A DNA stretch of 64,000 nucleotides. Source: Ruminiclostridium sp. (GTDB taxonomy: Bacteria > Bacillota > Clostridia > Oscillospirales > Ruminococcaceae). The stretch is taken from assembly GCA_024682455.1 (NCBI GenBank), contig JAIKZF010000097.1, forward strand, positions 25,767-89,766, in the 5' to 3' direction. Of this stretch, positions 8,146 to 57,472 are shown piece after piece. Each line of letters opens with the position of its first letter. Within the stretch, counting starts at the first letter, position 1. The notes under the pieces were generated by a model, which was given only the letters and a program-made list of their open reading frames with translations, ran no database searches and was not told the origin of the DNA. A program made the translations under genes and the position numbers.

Positions 8146-9021
8146 TCAATATTTCTTTTCGAGCTCCGCGGTCTCGGCGTATATCCGGGCGTAGCTTTCG
8201 TATCTTGACCGCGCTATCAGTCCGGCGTTCACGGCCTCGGTGACCGCACAGCCGCTCTCCTTCAGGTGAGCGCAGTCCGCGAATCTGCATTTCCCGATGT
8301 ACGGAACGAACTCCGGGAAGCACCCCGCCAGCTCAGCCTTCGGTATTCTCCCGTAACGCTCGATATCCACCGTCGAAAAGCCCGGAGTATCGGCTATATA
8401 TCCTCCACCGCCCAACGGGTACATACGTACCTCACGTGTGGTATGCCTGCCGCGCCCAAGCTTCTTGCTGATCTCTCCGGTCTCGGTATTCAGCTCCGGG
8501 AATATGCGGTTCATCAGGCTCGACTTACCGACTCCCGAGTTCCCTATCATCGCTGAGGTCTTACCCTCGGCGCAGGCGCGTATATCATCGGCTCCGCGCT
8601 CCGGATCCGTGAAGAAGCAACGGTATCCCGCCTTCTCGTATATCTCCGCGAGCCCTTTGACCTCGCGCATATCCGTCTTGGTGAATATGAGCGCAGTCTC
8701 TATCTCCTTGCTTTCAAATATGGATATCAGCTTGTCGATAATATAGGCGTTCGGCGAAGGCTCGCACGACGATACCACCAGCAGCACCATATCAAGGTTC
8801 GCCAGAGGGGGTCTGATCAGCAGGTTCTTCCTTTCGGCTATGCTCTCTATCTGCGGCTCGGCGTTATCCTCCGCCGACACCGTCACATTGTCGCCCGCCG
8901 CCGGAGATACAGACCTGTTCCTGAATATCCCCCTTGCCCGGCAGGCAAGCACGCCCTCGGACGTCTCGGTATAGTATATCCCCCCGACAGCCCGGATTAT
9001 CTTTCCGTCAAGTGTTTTCAT
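8146..9021 (-). CDS. rsgA: Ribosome small subunit-dependent GTPase A
   Basis: NLLIRPPLANLDMVLLV, GNSGVGKSSLMNRI, GRGRHTTREVRMYPL, IADTPGFS, C-terminal Cys/His zinc motif (GKCRFADCAHLKESGCAV). Confidence 0.95.
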   Translation of the reverse strand: MKTLDGKIIRAVGGIYYTETSEGVLACRARGIFRNRSVSPAAGDNVTVSAEDNAEPQIESIAERKNLLIRPPLANLDMVLLVVSSCEPSPNAYIIDKLISIFESKEIETALIFTKTDMREVKGLAEIYEKAGYRCFFTDPERGADDIRACAEGKTSAMIGNSGVGKSSLMNRIFPELNTETGEISKKLGRGRHTTREVRMYPLGGGGYIADTPGFSTVDIERYGRIPKAELAGCFPEFVPYIGKCRFADCAHLKESGCAVTEAVNAGLIARSRYESYARIYAETAELEKKY

Positions 9022-37598: not shown

Positions 37599-37674
37599 TG
37601 GAGCGGATTACGAGGCTCGAACTCGCTACCTCCACCTTGGCAAGGTGGCGCTCTACCAGATGAGCTAAATCCGC
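37599..37674 (-). tRNA. tRNA-Gly (GCC)
   Basis: Minus strand GCGGATTTAGCTCATCTGGTAGAGCGCCACCTTGCCAAGGTGGAGGTAGCGAGTTCGAGCCTCGTAATCCGCTCCA; loop TTGCCAA. Confidence 0.95.
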
Positions 37675-37698
37675 ATCTCCGATCATATAGACCGAAGT

Positions 37699-37774
37699 TG
37701 GTGCTTCCGGTCGGAATCGAACCAACGACACGGGGATTTTCAGTCCCCTGCTCTACCAACTGAGCTACAGAAGC
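37699..37774 (-). tRNA. tRNA-Phe (GAA)
   Basis: GCTTCTGTAGCTCAGTTGGTAGAGCAGGGGACTGAAAATCCCCGTGTCGTTGGTTCGATTCCGACCGGAAGCACCA; loop CTGAAAA. Confidence 0.95.
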
Positions 37775-37827
37775 ATATCCCGGAACAGTCAAGCGTACTG
37801 TCCGGAAAACCGATCAGCGCAATGCGC

Positions 37828-37904
37828 TGGCGACCCGAATGGGGCTCGAACCCATGACCTCTAGCGTGACAGGCTAGCGTTCTAACCAGCTGAACTACCG
37901 GGCC
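37828..37904 (-). tRNA. tRNA-Asp (GTC)
   Basis: GGCCCGGTAGTTCAGCTGGTTAGAACGCTAGCCTGTCACGCTAGAGGTCATGGGTTCGAGCCCCATTCGGGTCGCCA; loop CTGTCAC. Confidence 0.95.
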
Positions 37905-37952
37905 GTATATCGCTTACGCGCAAAAGCGCTGTATCCGCCGAATGATCGCGGA

Positions 37953-38028
37953 TGGTGGGAGTTACAGGGCTCGAACCTGTGACCCTCTGCTTGTAGGGCA
38001 GACGCTCTCCCAGCTGAGCTAAACTCCC
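37953..38028 (-). tRNA. tRNA-Val (TAC)
   Basis: GGGAGTTTAGCTCAGCTGGGAGAGCGTCTGCCCTACAAGCAGAGGGTCACAGGTTCGAGCCCTGTAACTCCCACCA; loop CCTACAA. Confidence 0.95.
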
Positions 38029-38132: not shown

Positions 38133-39536
38133 TCAGATACTGTCCATGCTTCTGAATACCATATCGGTGATATCACTGCATATCTTATAGATACCGTTTT
38201 CGTCGCGCTTATGGCTCGCGCCCGTAGTAAAGACTACGACCACGTTTTTTGTCTCGGGGTCATAAGAAGCCAGAGCTATTACTCCGTAGGCGTTACCGGT
38301 ATGGTAATATACGCCCTTGGTGCCGTACAGCCCCTTCATATAGCGCACGGCAAGCGCCTGCCTGAACGTGCCGCCGTATTCAGAAGCCTTCACATACTTC
38401 TTCTCCAGCAGCTCGACGGACTCGGGCGAAAGTATCTGCTCACCGGCGTAGCTGCCGTCGTTGGCAAGCATATAGAACATCTTGGCTACATCGCGCGCGG
38501 AGCCCGTAAGCCCGCCTATGTAATTGCCCGCGTTCACGGCGAGCTCACCGTCGGGGAGAAGGCACTTCGCCTCGGACACCGTGAGCTCCAGCCCGTGATC
38601 CTCCTCATAGAGCGTGGCGAGCTTGGAGGTGTTTCCCAGCCTCCCCGCAAAGAAGGACATATCCACTCCCATGGGAGCAAAGATATTCTCATGCGCGTAA
38701 TCCTCAAGTATCGTGCCCGAAGCAAGCTCAAGCGTTGCCGCGGCTATGGAGGAGGCATAGTTGTTATACCCCCACACATCACGCGTCCCGACCGTACCGT
38801 CCAGATAGTGCTTCGCATCAAGAAGCTGCTCCAGAAGAGCCTCCTTGCCCGACTTCAGCGCAAGGTACTGAAGAGTCGAGGTATGGGTGAACAGGGTCGT
38901 GAGCGAGATGCCCTTCGGAAGCTTCGCGCCCCAGTACTTATCTATGCGCTTGTTCATGCCGACTATATCCTGCTCCTGCATTTTAAGTGCGCATATAGCG
39001 ACCGCGACCTTGCTTATTGACGCGGCACGGAATTTCGTATTCTTTTTGACCTCCTTCGAGCCCCATTTCGAATAGCCGTAGGTCCAGTCGAATATCCTGC
39101 CGTCGCTGCCGCGTATGGCAGCCACCTGGACGCCGATAGCCTTCGCGTCATACGCCGTATCCGCTATAAAGCTTCTTACATCGGAATACAGGGTCCCGTC
39201 GTTCTTGTATTTTATGCGTCCGTATTTCGGCTTGGCGGATTTCTTGTAGTAGCGGCGGGAGACATTGCTTGACACCCACCCCGTAAATCCCTTTGAATCG
39301 CGCACCTTGTACCACAGTATGTCCATATTGTCGAACTGAGCTCCGAGATATTCCAGAGAGACCGGAGCTCCGGTATATCCCTTTATGTCATAGTCAGCTC
39401 CGGGACCCTCGCGGAGGTTGACGTTCTTGTTCGGGATATAGATATAGTAGTCCGTATCGGCATACGCCGCAGGAACACAGGTAAGCATTATCGCAAAGAC
39501 GGCAAACAGCGCCGCGATCCTTCTCAGCATTTTCAT
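38133..39536 (-). CDS. Secreted serine hydrolase (beta-lactamase/class C family) with N-terminal SH3b domain
   Basis: Signal peptide; NVNLREGPGADYDIKGY SH3-like; FRAASISKVAVAI (SxxK), YNNYASS (YxN). Confidence 0.88.
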   Translation of the reverse strand: MKMLRRIAALFAVFAIMLTCVPAAYADTDYYIYIPNKNVNLREGPGADYDIKGYTGAPVSLEYLGAQFDNMDILWYKVRDSKGFTGWVSSNVSRRYYKKSAKPKYGRIKYKNDGTLYSDVRSFIADTAYDAKAIGVQVAAIRGSDGRIFDWTYGYSKWGSKEVKKNTKFRAASISKVAVAICALKMQEQDIVGMNKRIDKYWGAKLPKGISLTTLFTHTSTLQYLALKSGKEALLEQLLDAKHYLDGTVGTRDVWGYNNYASSIAAATLELASGTILEDYAHENIFAPMGVDMSFFAGRLGNTSKLATLYEEDHGLELTVSEAKCLLPDGELAVNAGNYIGGLTGSARDVAKMFYMLANDGSYAGEQILSPESVELLEKKYVKASEYGGTFRQALAVRYMKGLYGTKGVYYHTGNAYGVIALASYDPETKNVVVVFTTGASHKRDENGIYKICSDITDMVFRSMDSI

Positions 39537-39610: not shown

Positions 39611-39639
39611 TTGACATTAACAGGAAAATATGATATAAT
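39611..39639 (+). promoter_or_regulatory. Extended consensus promoter (TTGACA-N17-TATAAT with TGn)
   Basis: ttgaca 39611-39616; tga-tataat 39631-39639. Confidence 0.88.
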
Positions 39640-39654
39640 TCATTTGATAAAAAT

Positions 39655-39800
39655 AACAGCTTCGGGAACAGGAGAAGTACGGTGAGAATCCGTCGCAGCA
39701 GTCACTACCGTCACAGTCGGGCCGCTTGTCCTGAGGTTCGGTAGAACGCATTTTTGGGCAGTGAAAAGTGCAGCCGGCGGGGACGGCCTCCCCTGACGCG
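39655..39800 (+). promoter_or_regulatory. Cobalamin riboswitch (class uncertain)
   Basis: CGGGAACAGGAGAAGTACGGTGAGAATCCGTCGCAGCAGTCACTACCGTCACAGTCGGGCCGCTTGTCC matches the cobalamin aptamer core (GGTG.nAAUCC, GC..GUCACU.CCGU, AGUC.GG...C.UGuC B12-box-like). Confidence 0.85.
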
Positions 39801-39827
39801 CTTTCTCGCCCGCGAGAAAGCTTTTTT
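39801..39827 (+). terminator. Riboswitch expression-platform terminator
   Basis: ctttctcg-cccg-cgagaaag-ctttttt. Confidence 0.88.
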
Positions 39828-39874
39828 GATGTGTTTGACTGTTTTTATCAATGAAAGAAAAGGAAGGATATACA

Positions 39875-40795
39875 ATGAAAAAACTTATTTCGGCAGCCGC
39901 TGTGATCGCGGCTATGGGTGTGCTCACAGTCTCCGCTTATGCGGACGTTTATGTGACTATCGCGGATGAAAACGGAAACCTTGCTGTTGCGCTGGAGCCC
40001 GTCGAGCTTTCAGACGCCGACGGCGACGGTGCTATTACCGTCAACGACGCTCTCATTCTCGCGCATGACAAGTGCTACGACGGCGGCGCAGAGAGCGGCT
40101 ACGGCTATGCCGAGGGCGATTACGGCCTTATGATGACAAAGCTCTGGGGCGTTGAAAACGGCGGCAGCTACGGCTACTATGTAAACAACACGGCAGCAAT
40201 GAGCCTTGCGGACGAGGTCAAGGACGGATGCATCGTGAACGCTTTCGTTTATACCGATCTGACCGCTTGGAGCGATACATACTGCTACTTCGACTCGACA
40301 TTCGGCGGCATAGAAGACTGCGGTTATGATACTATACCCGAGTTTCGCCTCAACCTTACGGCTGCTGCGTTCGACGAGAACTGGGCTCCGATCAGTGTTC
40401 CCGTAGCAGATGCCACGATCACCGTCAACGGCGAGAAGACCGACTTTGTGACCGATGAGAACGGTGATGTTACAGTCCAGCTCCCGCAAGAGGACGGAAA
40501 GTATGTAATAAGTGCAGTCTCCGATACACAGACCCTCGCCCCCCCCGTATGCATTCTCTCGGTTTCTATGCTTAAAGACGAAAATCTCGCTCTCGATGCA
40601 GAGGAAGAAGCAGCAGTTGAGGAAGCTCCTGCTGAAGAGCCTGCAGCCGAGACAGCTCCCGCTGCCGGCGATGTTGCCGCAGCATCTGAAAGCTCGAAAG
40701 GCTCGCCCGATACCGGTATTGCCGATACCGCTGCCGTTGCCGGTCTCGCGGTAATTGCTGCCGGTGCCTTCATTATCTCCAAGAAGAGAAAGTAA
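39875..40795 (+). CDS. Secreted, sortase-anchored (SPDTG) protein with DUF4430-like segment and EF-hand/dockerin-like loop
   Basis: Signal peptide MKKLISAAAVIAAMGVLTVSAYA; DADGDGAITVNDALILAHD; LWGVENGGSYGYYVNNTAAMSLADEVKDGCIVNAFVY; C-terminal SPDTG-hydrophobic-KKRK. Confidence 0.8.
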   Translation: MKKLISAAAVIAAMGVLTVSAYADVYVTIADENGNLAVALEPVELSDADGDGAITVNDALILAHDKCYDGGAESGYGYAEGDYGLMMTKLWGVENGGSYGYYVNNTAAMSLADEVKDGCIVNAFVYTDLTAWSDTYCYFDSTFGGIEDCGYDTIPEFRLNLTAAAFDENWAPISVPVADATITVNGEKTDFVTDENGDVTVQLPQEDGKYVISAVSDTQTLAPPVCILSVSMLKDENLALDAEEEAAVEEAPAEEPAAETAPAAGDVAAASESSKGSPDTGIADTAAVAGLAVIAAGAFIISKKRK

Positions 40796-42432
40796 TGAAG
40801 CTGAGAAAAAAGATCGTATCTTTATTTATGGTATCCGCCGTGCTGATGTCATTTCTCGCGGCGGATATCTCCGCATTATACGAAAAGACCGTCGGTGAAG
40901 CCGAAAGCATCATCGGCGGGATTCTTGATTTTGAACTCGAAAAAAACGGCTGCGCCGATGCGCAGGAATGGATAAACGGCAGCATTACGGCAAACGCCGG
41001 ACAAAGCTCGGAATGGTACGCGATAATACTCTCGAAAAGCGGGGACTATGATCTTTCGGGCTACCGTGACGCGCTGAAAAAGTATATCGCGGAAAACAAG
41101 ATCAATTCCGCGACATCACGAATGAAGAACGCCCTTGCCCTGCTTGCGGCAGGAGAACCTCCCGAAACGCTCGGCGATACCGCGGAAAGCTCGGTAGGTG
41201 AACAGGGCATAATGAGCATGATCTACGGGCTTCACCTGCTGAACAACGGCTGCGAGTGCAGCAGATACACCGCCGGGACGCTCGCCGCTGAGCTGCTGTC
41301 CATGCAGTTCGCTGACGGAGGCTGGGCCGTTATGGGCGAGAACGGCGACATCGACGTCACCGCTATGGCTGTGCAGGCTCTCGCGCCGCACAATGACGAT
41401 CCCGCTGCCGCAAAGGCGATAGATTCCGCGCTTGCGTTTCTGTCGGAAAGACAGCTCGACAACGGCGGCTACAAGAGCTTCGGCACCGAGAACCCCGAAA
41501 GCGCCGCGCAGGTGCTTATCGCTATGGCTCAGCTCGGTATCGCGGCGGACGACGAGAGATTCGTAAAAAACGGAAACACGATCATCGACGGGATAACAAG
41601 GTTCAGACAGAGCGACGGCAGCTTCTCGCATACATTGGACGGCGATACCAACGAGACCGCCACAACTCAGGTCTGGCTCGCGATGACGGCATACACCGCA
41701 GCCCGGAGCGACGGCGAAAAGCTGTATATATTCGAGCGCAGGGAGCCCGCCGAACGATCCGAGCCCGAAGTCTCCGTGACAGCGGCACCGGAGCCGGTCC
41801 CGGAGACCTCTGCGGTCTCCCCTGCCCCCGCCGTCGCCGACACAGCGCGGGAGGTATCCGAAAGCGGCTCCGGTTACAAGCCTGTCGCTTATATCGTTAT
41901 CGGGGCGGCGGCTCTGACGGGATGCGTTATATTGTTCGTCCTGAAAAAGCGCAGAGCCTCGAATTTTATCGCGGTGCTCATCGTCGCGGGAGCGGCTGCG
42001 GCTTTCGTATTCTTCACGGAATTCAGAAGCACCGAGGAATATTACAGCGGAACGGACGACAGCTCTTCCGGGACAGCGGGGACAGTTACCCTCTCGATAC
42101 GCTGCGATACTATTGTCGGCAGGTACGATTCCCCATACGTCCCCGCAGACGGCATAATACTCGATACGACGGAATTCGGCATCTCCGAGGGAGAGACCGT
42201 ATATGATATACTCACGCGCGCGGCGCGGAAATACAATATCCAGCTTCAGGCGGGTGCCAACGGATATATCTCCGGTATCGGATATCTGTACGAATTCGAC
42301 TGTGGGGATCTGTCGGGCTGGATATACCACGTAAACGGCGATACGCCGTTCATGATGTGCTCGGAATATAAGCTGTCCGACGGCGACAGGGTGGAATGGC
42401 TATATACCTGCGACCTCGGAAATGATCTGTAA
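40795..42432 (+). CDS. Transcobalamin-like membrane protein: prenyltransferase/squalene-cyclase-type alpha-toroid repeats, two TM helices, C-terminal DUF4430-like domain
   Basis: Signal peptide; MQFADGGWAVMGENGDIDVTAMAVQAL, RQLDNGGYKSFG...ESAAQVLIAM, RQSDGSFSHT...TATTQVWLAM; TMs with KKRR between; C-terminal SGWIYHVNGDTPFMMCSEYKLSDGDRVEWLYT. Confidence 0.85.
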   Translation: MKLRKKIVSLFMVSAVLMSFLAADISALYEKTVGEAESIIGGILDFELEKNGCADAQEWINGSITANAGQSSEWYAIILSKSGDYDLSGYRDALKKYIAENKINSATSRMKNALALLAAGEPPETLGDTAESSVGEQGIMSMIYGLHLLNNGCECSRYTAGTLAAELLSMQFADGGWAVMGENGDIDVTAMAVQALAPHNDDPAAAKAIDSALAFLSERQLDNGGYKSFGTENPESAAQVLIAMAQLGIAADDERFVKNGNTIIDGITRFRQSDGSFSHTLDGDTNETATTQVWLAMTAYTAARSDGEKLYIFERREPAERSEPEVSVTAAPEPVPETSAVSPAPAVADTAREVSESGSGYKPVAYIVIGAAALTGCVILFVLKKRRASNFIAVLIVAGAAAAFVFFTEFRSTEEYYSGTDDSSSGTAGTVTLSIRCDTIVGRYDSPYVPADGIILDTTEFGISEGETVYDILTRAARKYNIQLQAGANGYISGIGYLYEFDCGDLSGWIYHVNGDTPFMMCSEYKLSDGDRVEWLYTCDLGNDL

Positions 42433-42446
42433 GGGAGTGAGAAGCG

Positions 42447-43325
42447 GTGCGCGGCTTTGAGGAACTTAACCCGGCTGTCCTGATGACATACTATCTGTGC
42501 GTCATAGGAACGGCTATGTTCTGCATGGATCCCGTGGTCATCGGAATATCGCTTGCAGGCGCCTGCGCGCTGTTTATCACTCTGGACGGAAAACGCGGCG
42601 CAAGAACGCATCTGTCGTTCTTCCTGCTTTTTCTCGTTATGTCGCTGATAAACCCGATATGGTATCATAACGGCGTGACTGTGCTGTTCGTGGTGAACGA
42701 CAGCCCGATAACGCTGGAGGCTCTCGCGTACGGCGTATGCGCCTCCGCTATGATCGTGTCGGTGCTGTACAGGCTCAGGACATTCACAATGATAATATCC
42801 GCGGACAAGCTGCTGTACGTATTCGGCAGGCTTTCGCCGCAGCTTTCGCTGGTGCTCTCGATGGCGCTGCGGTTTGTGCCGCTGATACGCGCGCAGACAA
42901 CGAAGGTGCGCAGCTCTCAGAAGGCTCTCGGCATATACCGCGGAGACAATATCGCCGACACGCTGAAAGGCGAAGCGCGTATATTCTCGATAACAGCAAC
43001 ATGGGCGCTGGAGAACGGTATAATAACCTCCGACAGTATGGAGGCGCGCGGCTACGGCGAGCACAGGAGAACGAGCTTTTCGGTGTTCCGGTTCACACGG
43101 GGAGACGCGCTGTTCCTTGCGCTGTGTCTTGTACCGTCAGCGGTATTCATCGCAGCGGCAGCCACGGGTGAAATGTCGTTCACGTTCTACCCCGCCATGT
43201 CCGGGATATCGCTCACTCCGCTGTCCGCGGCAGGCTACGCGTCTTACGGTTTCCTTTCACTGCTGCCCTGCATTCTTGAATGGAAGGAGGATATCCGTTG
43301 GAGATACTTGATATCAAGGATCTGA
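42447..43325 (+). CDS. Energy-coupling factor transporter transmembrane protein EcfT
   Basis: GTG start; CbiQ-like TM pattern; RFVPLIRAQTTKVRSSQKALG and SMEARGYG motifs. Confidence 0.9.
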   Translation: MRGFEELNPAVLMTYYLCVIGTAMFCMDPVVIGISLAGACALFITLDGKRGARTHLSFFLLFLVMSLINPIWYHNGVTVLFVVNDSPITLEALAYGVCASAMIVSVLYRLRTFTMIISADKLLYVFGRLSPQLSLVLSMALRFVPLIRAQTTKVRSSQKALGIYRGDNIADTLKGEARIFSITATWALENGIITSDSMEARGYGEHRRTSFSVFRFTRGDALFLALCLVPSAVFIAAAATGEMSFTFYPAMSGISLTPLSAAGYASYGFLSLLPCILEWKEDIRWRYLISRI

Positions 43326-44917
43326 GCTTTACATATAACGAAGCGAACTCACCGACTCTTAAAGATATCTCCCTGTCCGTGAACGAGGGCCAGTTCGTCG
43401 TTCTGTGCGGAGCCACGGGAAGCGGCAAGTCTACCCTGCTGCGTCTGCTGAAGCCCCAGCTCTCGCCCTACGGAAAAAGCACGGGAACGATAAGCTTCCG
43501 CGAAAAGCCCATAGGCGAGTGCGCAAGCGCCGCAGATATCGGTTTTGTGACCCAGAGACCCGAACAGCAGATAGTCACGGACAAGGTTTGGCATGAGCTT
43601 GCGTTCGGGCTGGAAAATATGGGTGTAAAGCAGCAGGACACGGCTCGAAGAACAGCCGAGATGGCAAGCTACTTCGGCATTGAGGATAAATTCGATAAGA
43701 GTACGGCGGAGCTTTCCGGCGGACAGAAACAGCTCATAAATCTCGCCGCAGTCATGGTCACCGAGCCGAAGCTGCTGATACTTGACGAGCCCACCGCGCA
43801 GCTCGACCCGATCACAGCGTCGGAATTCATAAACACCGTGAAAAAGCTGAACCGTGATCTTTCGCTGACCGTCATCATAGCCGAGCACAGGCTTGAGGAG
43901 GTCATACCGATCTGCGATAATCTCGTGATCATAGATAAAGGCCGTATCATAGCCTCCGGCGATCCGCGAGAAGTCATTTCCCGCATATACGGAAACAGCG
44001 GGATAATGCTCGGTATGCCCGCGGCTGCGCGTATCTCCGCGTATCTCGGCGAGCGTGACTGCGCACTGAGCGTCAGAGAAGGCCGCGAGCTTGTCAGACG
44101 ATTCGGAAATACCGAGACTCTCCCCGATAACGCCGTAAGCACGGATAACAAAAAAACCGTCCTTGAATTCAGGGACGTGTATTTCAGATATGAACGCGCT
44201 CTTCCCGATGTGCTGAAAGGGCTCAGCTTCACCGTGACCGAGGGCGAGATATTCTGTATACTCGGCGGGAACGGTTCCGGCAAAACGACCGCGCTCGGCA
44301 CCGCCGCGGGTATACTTAAGCCCTACGCGGGGAACATTCTTGTATTCGGGAAAAAGCTTAAGGAATACAAAAACCAGAGCCTTTACAGAGAATGTCTTGC
44401 TCTTATGCCGCAGGATATACAGACCGTTTTTCTCCGCAATACCGTGCGTGAGGAAATGGAGGACGCCGGAGCGGATATATCGTCTCTGCCCTACGACCTG
44501 ACGCCGCTGCTGGATATGCATCCTTACGATCTTTCGGGGGGCGAACAGCAGCTTGCGGCTCTCGCGAAGGTCCTCGCGCTCAAACCGAGATTACTGCTGC
44601 TGGACGAGCCCACAAAGGGGCTTGACGCGGCTTCAAAGGACAGGATAAGGAAGCTTATGCGGGAGCTCGCACATTCCGGCATCACGATAGTCGCGGTCAC
44701 TCACGATGTTGAGTTCGCGGCGGAATGTGCGGACAGATGCGCGCTGTTCTTCCGCGGGGAGATAGTGTCGACTGCTCCGCCGGAGGAATTCTTCTCCGCA
44801 AACAGCTTCTACACCACCGCCGCGAGCCGCATAACCCGCGGGCATTTCGAGCGCGCGGTCACTGCCGAAAAAGCCGCCGCCCTGTGCAGACTCAACGGCA
44901 GAAGGGCGGGTATGTGA
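43298..44917 (+). CDS. Energy-coupling factor ABC transporter ATPase, two fused ATPase domains (EcfA-EcfA')
   Basis: Two Walker A motifs (GATGSGKSTLL, GGNGSGKTTAL) and two signature/Walker B pairs (LSGGQKQL..LLILDEPTAQLD; LSGGEQQL..LLLLDEPTKGLD); TTG start after aaggagg preferred over ATG 43280. Confidence 0.93.
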   Translation: MEILDIKDLSFTYNEANSPTLKDISLSVNEGQFVVLCGATGSGKSTLLRLLKPQLSPYGKSTGTISFREKPIGECASAADIGFVTQRPEQQIVTDKVWHELAFGLENMGVKQQDTARRTAEMASYFGIEDKFDKSTAELSGGQKQLINLAAVMVTEPKLLILDEPTAQLDPITASEFINTVKKLNRDLSLTVIIAEHRLEEVIPICDNLVIIDKGRIIASGDPREVISRIYGNSGIMLGMPAAARISAYLGERDCALSVREGRELVRRFGNTETLPDNAVSTDNKKTVLEFRDVYFRYERALPDVLKGLSFTVTEGEIFCILGGNGSGKTTALGTAAGILKPYAGNILVFGKKLKEYKNQSLYRECLALMPQDIQTVFLRNTVREEMEDAGADISSLPYDLTPLLDMHPYDLSGGEQQLAALAKVLALKPRLLLLDEPTKGLDAASKDRIRKLMRELAHSGITIVAVTHDVEFAAECADRCALFFRGEIVSTAPPEEFFSANSFYTTAASRITRGHFERAVTAEKAAALCRLNGRRAGM

Positions 44918-45603
44918 TGTTACTGATAAAAAACAGGAATCTACGCGCCTTCATCGTCAGGGCGTTCCCGTTCGTACTGATACCTGCCGCAGCGATACTC
45001 GGCGCCGTGGTATTCGACAACAGCCGGCACCTGATAATCTCGCTCGCTGTGGCTGTGATGACGCTTCTGGTGTTCGCAGCCGGCTACGAAAAGAAGAAGG
45101 TCGGCACCTGGCGCATGGTGATAGCCTCCGTGATGACGGCGCTGTGCGTATTCGGCAGGTTCATACCGCTGTTCAAGCCGATAACCGCGATAACGATCAT
45201 CACGGGAATGTACATAGGCAGCGAGACCGGCTTTTTGGTAGGCGCCATGTCCGCACTCATATCCAACATCTATATGGGACAGGGGCCGTGGACGGCTTTC
45301 CAGATGCTCGCGTGGGGGCTTATCGGATATATCGCCGGTATCATCGCCGAGCCGCTGAAAAGGCACAGGTGGCTGCTGCTCTTTTACGGCGTGGTCACGG
45401 GTATCGCTTACTCGTTCATAATGGATATCTGGACGACTCTGTGGTACAGCGGAGGCTTCGATATCGGCGTTTATCTGTCTGCTCTCATTACCGCGATCCC
45501 ATATACCGTGAGCTACGCCGTATCCAATCTGATCTTTCTGCTGTTCCTCGCGAAGCCTTTCGGTGAAAAGCTTGAACGAATACGAAAAAAATACGGACTA
45601 TAA
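44917..45603 (+). CDS. ECF transporter S component (probable cobalamin-specific, CbrT-like by context)
   Basis: Six hydrophobic segments; ATG overlaps stop of EcfAA'; SALISNIYMGQGPWTAFQMLAWGLIGYIAG. Confidence 0.82.
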   Translation: MLLIKNRNLRAFIVRAFPFVLIPAAAILGAVVFDNSRHLIISLAVAVMTLLVFAAGYEKKKVGTWRMVIASVMTALCVFGRFIPLFKPITAITIITGMYIGSETGFLVGAMSALISNIYMGQGPWTAFQMLAWGLIGYIAGIIAEPLKRHRWLLLFYGVVTGIAYSFIMDIWTTLWYSGGFDIGVYLSALITAIPYTVSYAVSNLIFLLFLAKPFGEKLERIRKKYGL

Positions 45604-45761: not shown

Positions 45762-45790
45762 AAAAAGGAACCGAAGTCGGTTCCTTTTTT
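45762..45790. terminator. Bidirectional intrinsic terminator
   Basis: aaaaaggaaccg-aagt-cggttcctttttt. Confidence 0.85.
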
Positions 45791-57278: not shown

Positions 57279-57297
57279 TAAATCCTCTTTACACTCC

Positions 57298-57396
57298 CTC
57301 ATCTTCCACCTCTTACGGTGCGGGAATTGGCACCTTTGCTCTCACGCAGGTTGCCGCGGCTTCATCGGACCCGTTTCCTCCGCCGCTCTTGATAAG
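57298..57396 (-). promoter_or_regulatory. SAM-I (S-box) riboswitch upstream of metK
   Basis: Minus strand CTTATCAAGAGCGGCGGAGGAAACGGGTCCGATGAAGCCGCGGCAACCTGCGTG...GGTGCCAATTCCCGCACCGTAAGAGGTGGAAGATGAG. Confidence 0.96.
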
Positions 57397-57472
57397 GATA
57401 TTTTTGTCGATAAAAGTATTCTATCATATTTTATAGGATTTGTCAATAGTATTCTGTAATTTTGCACAAAAT

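Follow-up and report, generated by a model that had tools for sequence, protein, structure and literature searches.

The locus lies in a window of 64 kb (the whole stretch of DNA that was analysed) and forms an operon on the forward strand, in which a promoter, a riboswitch and a terminator are followed by the genes for a first surface protein, the toroid-hairpin-DUF4430 protein studied here, EcfT, EcfAA and EcfS. The individual features are these:

39611..39639, forward strand: sigma-70-type promoter, 12/12 consensus positions, extended −10
39650..39741, forward strand: AdoCbl-II-like cobalamin riboswitch aptamer (RF01689 and a model built from relatives)
39800..39829, forward strand: intrinsic terminator, 9-bp stem (39800-39821) and U run, between the aptamer and the first gene
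39875..40795, forward strand: first gene, coding for a secreted protein of 306 aa that has a putative beta-grasp of DUF4430 type (predicted secondary structure and a motif), another beta domain and, at its C-terminus, an SPDTG anchor
40795-42432, forward strand: toroid-transmembrane hairpin-DUF4430 protein, an open reading frame of 545 aa
40912..41730, forward strand: its alpha/alpha toroid, residues ~40-312 (AlphaFold2, fold search, Prenyltrans/SQHop in relatives)
41875..42015, forward strand: its predicted transmembrane (TM) hairpin, TM1 361-382, KKRR turn, TM2 388-407 (AlphaFold2 and loop charge)
42079..42408, forward strand: its DUF4430 or transcobalamin-like beta-grasp, residues 429-538 (PF14478, AlphaFold2, fold search, hhalign)
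42447..43325, forward strand: EcfT-like transmembrane component (CbiQ 20.9 bits, below the cut-off of 25; conserved position)
43280..44917, forward strand: EcfAA, two fused ECF ATPases (ECF_ATPase_1 334 bits, cut-off 315)
44917..45603, forward strand: EcfS, CbrT-like B12 S-component (phmmer against the PDB, 6fnp_A, E 1.3e-11)
45767..45790 (approximate), forward strand: hairpin then U run past the last gene, read from an alignment of chance sRNA matches; probably the operon end

The gene of the toroid-hairpin-DUF4430 protein starts with an ATG that overlaps the stop codon of the upstream gene, and its coordinates and length are exactly those given in the preliminary description. The product consists of an N-terminal hydrophobic signal-like segment, the toroid, a low-confidence disordered linker, the TM hairpin and DUF4430, and hydropathy located three hydrophobic segments (residues 7-25, 364-382 and 390-408). 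In an alignment of 64 members with 37-67% identity to the protein, the hairpin was predicted in every sequence; the loop between the two helices is 4-15 aa long, carries a net charge of +3 to +5 and exceeds both flanks in positive charge in 58 of the 64. Because of this basic loop and the signal-like N-terminus, both large domains are predicted to lie outside the cell, the topology that had also been proposed initially. The linkers (family medians: 54 residues from the toroid to TM1, 21 from TM2 to the beta domain) are in principle long enough for the toroid and DUF4430 to meet. Residues D187, M191, Q220, Q239, W509, N514 and Y537, which span both domains, are invariant (64/64), and Q292 and H279 are kept in 62/64.

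The AlphaFold2 model, built with 64 aligned relatives, had a mean pLDDT of 89.1 and a pTM of 0.70. It placed toroid helices up to residue ~306, disorder at ~337-358, TM helices at 361-382 and 388-407 and, after TM2, the order beta1-beta2-alpha-hairpin-beta, and thus contained both the alpha/alpha toroid and the beta domain. When the model was searched against 350,542 PDB chains, ranks 1-15 were all transcobalamin, intrinsic factor or haptocorrin, the animal B12 carriers to which the preliminary description had likened the protein, and terpene cyclases came next. These 15 matches covered both domains, with E values from 2.3e-7 to 2.0e-5 and TM-scores by target of up to 0.57; the rmsd to full-length carriers was 9-18 Å, and the isolated human transcobalamin (TC) beta domain reached a TM-score of 0.68 by target. 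The predicted overall fold, an alpha/alpha toroid followed by a beta domain, is that of the animal B12 carrier family. Layout and domain order as first described were borne out by the PF14478 match, the model and the fold search.

Residues 466-538 matched PF14478 (DUF4430) with E = 1.6e-13 and 51.3 bits (cut-off 23.8), and so did all 64 members of the alignment. Segments of human, rat and bovine TC also matched DUF4430, and the human one, identical to residues 173-409 of a PDB TC chain, did so with 26.3 bits, above the cut-off of 23.8. In the model this half has strands at 429-436 and 454-463, a helix at 469-479 and strands at 484-486, 492-495, 508-513 and 532-538, which makes it a beta-grasp whose helix is followed by an inserted beta-hairpin. 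An hhalign comparison of human TC with the bacterial profile of DUF4430 gave an in-register alignment over the domain, weak and of low probability, the TC profile being a thin one of three sequences; a sequence-only comparison of the DUF4430 profile with solved structures returned nothing at E<=10. The link to the carriers rests on the fold and the common Pfam family. Between convergence and shared ancestry, left as alternatives in the preliminary description, membership of TC and the protein in the same DUF4430 family favours shared ancestry for the beta domain, and convergence of this domain was set aside on that ground, but the toroid lacks PF01122.

PF01122 (Cobalamin_bind), which matched TC segments at up to 4.7e-51, gave no match in the protein at E<=1. 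The Prenyltrans and SQHop models matched the toroid below their cut-offs and reached E<=0.01 in 40-52 of the 64 relatives. Toroid sequence profiles retrieved terpene cyclases and not transcobalamin. Two short motifs nevertheless have equal spacing in TC and the toroid: SVDTAAM (D176, M180) of TC and DIDVTAM (D187, M191), and NALMISQ (N267, Q273) of TC and NETATTQ (N286, Q292). D176 and Q273 of TC are presumably in contact with cobalamin. For the toroid, the support for kinship to the animal carriers thus consists of the predicted fold and a few matching positions.

The B12-type leader that had been noted upstream proved to be the aptamer at 39650-39741. With RF01689 it scored 33.0 bits (E 9.5e-5; Rfam cut-off 36.5), and three relatives (L033, L037 and L053) were above that cut-off. 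When a covariance model was trained on 13 relatives, with the window excluded, it gave the aptamer 71.9 bits (E=1.8e-20), the next best match in the 64 kb being 11.3 bits. RF00174 was absent from the host genome by search, and the window element is of the AdoCbl-II type. The terminator that follows is expected to be the riboswitch expression platform. Among 80 relatives, the relatives-built model matched 44 at E<=1e-3, its 13 training members included, all on the operon strand; RF00174 was above its cut-off in 5 further loci, so that at least 49/80 have a cobalamin riboswitch on the operon strand. The riboswitch core pattern, sought on both strands of 1.03 Mb, was matched 31 times, and 30 of these matches fell within the interval that precedes the operon. 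In one relative (L076), EcfT opens the operon and the riboswitch precedes EcfT. Two others have two cobalamin-type riboswitch matches each, one before the surface-protein genes (5898-6006 in L068, 5814-5918 in L069) and one before EcfT (8729-8836 and 8664-8771, respectively), and EcfAA and EcfS in one long ORF; there the system seems to be divided into two separately regulated units.

The first protein scored 18.8 bits with Rumino_NPXTG, below the cut-off of 23.5. Its profile had no real match to that of the toroid-hairpin-DUF4430 protein and its fold search returned unspecific Ig-like matches only; because these searches were uninformative, we base its putative DUF4430-like identity on the predicted strand order and a motif. 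The beta-grasp of this protein contains a D-x-D-x-D-G calcium-loop or dockerin-like motif, and in some relatives its N-terminus is lipoprotein-like and the wall anchor is missing. For EcfS, 6fnp_A (CbrT) was the sole credible PDB match by phmmer, and the EcfS family profile matched CbrT at 1.5e-19 and otherwise only the S-component 4hzu_S, at 0.002. By sequence homology, EcfS belongs with CbrT and not with the other S-components. CbrT, as part of ECF-CbrT (structure 6FNP), has been shown by experiment to import cobalamin and cobinamide (PMC5997447).

The host genome, which is 86% complete, encodes one B12-binding protein, a MetH-type methyltransferase. No corrin methyltransferases were seen in this 86% complete assembly; its single TP_methylase-family protein looks like RsmI and not like a corrin enzyme, and we therefore see no sign of corrin ring synthesis.

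The fused toroid-hairpin-DUF4430 architecture was found in 80 species-representative genomes, mostly metagenome-assembled, and since these loci were picked as best matches the counts describe the fused group and not all bacteria. Cultured Ruminococcus flavefaciens strains (L038, L042, L044) are among them. The first protein is adjacent in 71/80 and EcfT is present in 74/80, downstream in 70 and upstream in 4. In most of 20 loci from the same taxonomic order, and also in Latilactobacillus curvatus, a separate toroid gene is followed by a separate DUF4430 gene. The separate toroid protein ends in a TM segment with a basic tail, an LPXTG signal or SLH-like repeats; the separate DUF4430 protein has an N-terminal TM segment, and EcfT, EcfAA and EcfS usually come next. 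A cobalamin riboswitch was present in 6 of 10 such separate-gene loci examined. Several of the separate-gene relatives (L113-L132) carry additional toroid or DUF4430 copies within large multidomain proteins.

Because the halves are separate yet adjacent in these relatives, the hairpin, across which the preliminary description had seen the two domains split, is most likely the product of gene fusion or fission, a C-anchored toroid gene having been joined to a neighbouring N-anchored DUF4430 gene. The direction cannot be read from the EcfAA tree, in which fused and separate forms need at least 3 changes by a quick method and with some long branches. A joint function is supported by the occurrence of the two halves in both states, fused and as neighbouring genes. 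When TC alpha and beta are produced as isolated domains, they assemble on Cbl (PMC5599065), and cleaved intrinsic factor fragments retain tight cobalamin binding (PMC6257451); these separable domains are a precedent for halves on separate chains.

Taken together, the toroid-hairpin-DUF4430 protein is very probably a tethered corrinoid-capture protein, made of a toroid and a transcobalamin-like beta-grasp, that works with a CbrT-type ECF B12 importer. From the domain content, predicted fold, operon, regulatory signal, S-component kinship and recurrence, all obtained by computation, we infer corrinoid binding, domain closure and hand-over along the following lines. At low cellular cobalamin, the riboswitch would let transcription past the terminator, and the toroid-DUF4430 pair would be displayed outside the cell along with the first protein, which is anchored to the wall. 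The toroid, on its linker of ~50 residues, and DUF4430, ~20 residues above the membrane, would clamp one corrinoid in the manner of transcobalamin. The clamped corrinoid would be passed to EcfS, and ATP hydrolysis by EcfAA together with EcfT would drive import, supplying MetH. The ECF transporter class is thought to need its S-component only. Chances seem to us about even that the ECF transporters of these operons have a dedicated membrane-tethered, transcobalamin-like two-domain clamp, with the hairpin positioning it over the CbrT-like subunit for direct hand-over.

The main substrate might be a corrinoid precursor or another cobamide (cobinamide, a lower-ligand variant) and not cobalamin itself. 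Cobinamide is also transported by CbrT (PMC5997447), and the evidence from the operon does not discriminate between cobamides; the riboswitch class and the MetH requirement, however, point to complete cobamides, with precursors still allowed, and we hold such a main substrate to be possible but not probable. To our knowledge, characterised ECF transporters function without an extracellular capture protein. If S-component binding suffices, the toroid-hairpin-DUF4430 protein could serve the ECF complex structurally or as a sensor and capture no substrate itself, consistent with the activity of ECF-CbrT without such a protein (PMC5997447); however, each of its two domains is related to known B12 binders by homology or by fold match, and the polar D187, Q239, Q292 and W509 are invariant or nearly so, which makes such a role very unlikely. 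A catalytic toroid, terpene-cyclase-like or glycan-active, with DUF4430 alone binding the vitamin, would fit the nearest sequence kin of the toroid, squalene-hopene and drimenyl cyclases, but is very unlikely: residues 185-188, at the site of the DxDD motif of class II terpene cyclases, read DIDV and end in V in 54/64 aligned sequences and in D in one, cyclases come after B12 carriers in the search with the full-length fold, and the predicted topology puts the toroid outside the cell; a terpene-cyclase role was dropped because DxDD is missing.

The reading as a corrinoid-capture protein has a predecessor. Burroughs et al. described in 2007 toroid-SLBB fusions with signal peptides in Gram-positive bacteria, in operons with CbiO/CbiQ and a second, paralogous extracellular SLBB protein, and proposed B12 scavenging and a transfer to animals (PMC1796856). 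The transcobalamin-like SLBB clade (PMC1796856) shares with our protein the toroid-beta-grasp fusion, the signal peptides, the transporter operon and the second surface protein, but here a TM hairpin connects the two domains. Neither hairpin nor riboswitch was found in the text of that paper, and a literature search, mostly of papers open without subscription, brought up neither experimental work on a bacterial protein of this type nor any account of the hairpin form, the riboswitch link or the CbrT link. The B12-carrier idea of the preliminary description is thus supported by fold and DUF4430 but is not new: the general idea has been known as a prediction since 2007 (PMC1796856), and the hairpin form and the riboswitch and CbrT links are new to the literature searched.

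Animal transcobalamin II, intrinsic factor and haptocorrin have the same order of toroid then beta domain, the latter in the DUF4430 Pfam family, but they are soluble proteins whose linker is flexible and whose toroid matches PF01122, whereas the bacterial protein is predicted to be membrane-tethered, lacks PF01122 and is encoded beside an importer. ECF-CbrT of Lactobacillus delbrueckii (6FNP) likewise combines an ECF module with CbrT, to which EcfS is homologous; the window operon differs in its own dedicated ECF module and two surface proteins. A plasmid operon of Latilactobacillus curvatus (CP117684.1) has the same order of toroid, DUF4430, EcfT, EcfAA and EcfS, but there the toroid and DUF4430 are on separate chains with an LPXTG sortase anchor in place of the hairpin. 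RUMGNA_00854 of Ruminococcus gnavus (3U7Z), a stand-alone 96-residue domain deposited as a putative metal binding protein, matches the DUF4430 part of the model with a TM-score of 0.73 by target.

Identifying the B12 transport systems of many gut bacteria has been called an open problem (PMC6593275). The operon offers a concrete candidate for the importer of Clostridia that depend on B12, cultured Ruminococcus flavefaciens strains among them, and the hairpin form suggests a way in which the vitamin may be captured by many gut bacteria that need it. The protein also provides a bacterial relative for testing the proposal that the animal B12 carriers came from bacteria.

Around the operon, a cluster of four tRNA genes (37602-38028, reverse strand) adjoins it, and two relatives (L034, L035) likewise have such a cluster close to the operon. 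The divergent gene beside it (38133-39536, reverse strand) encodes a secreted beta-lactamase/serine-hydrolase-fold protein with an SH3 domain. A SAM riboswitch was found at 57296-57398 (reverse strand; 89.8 bits).
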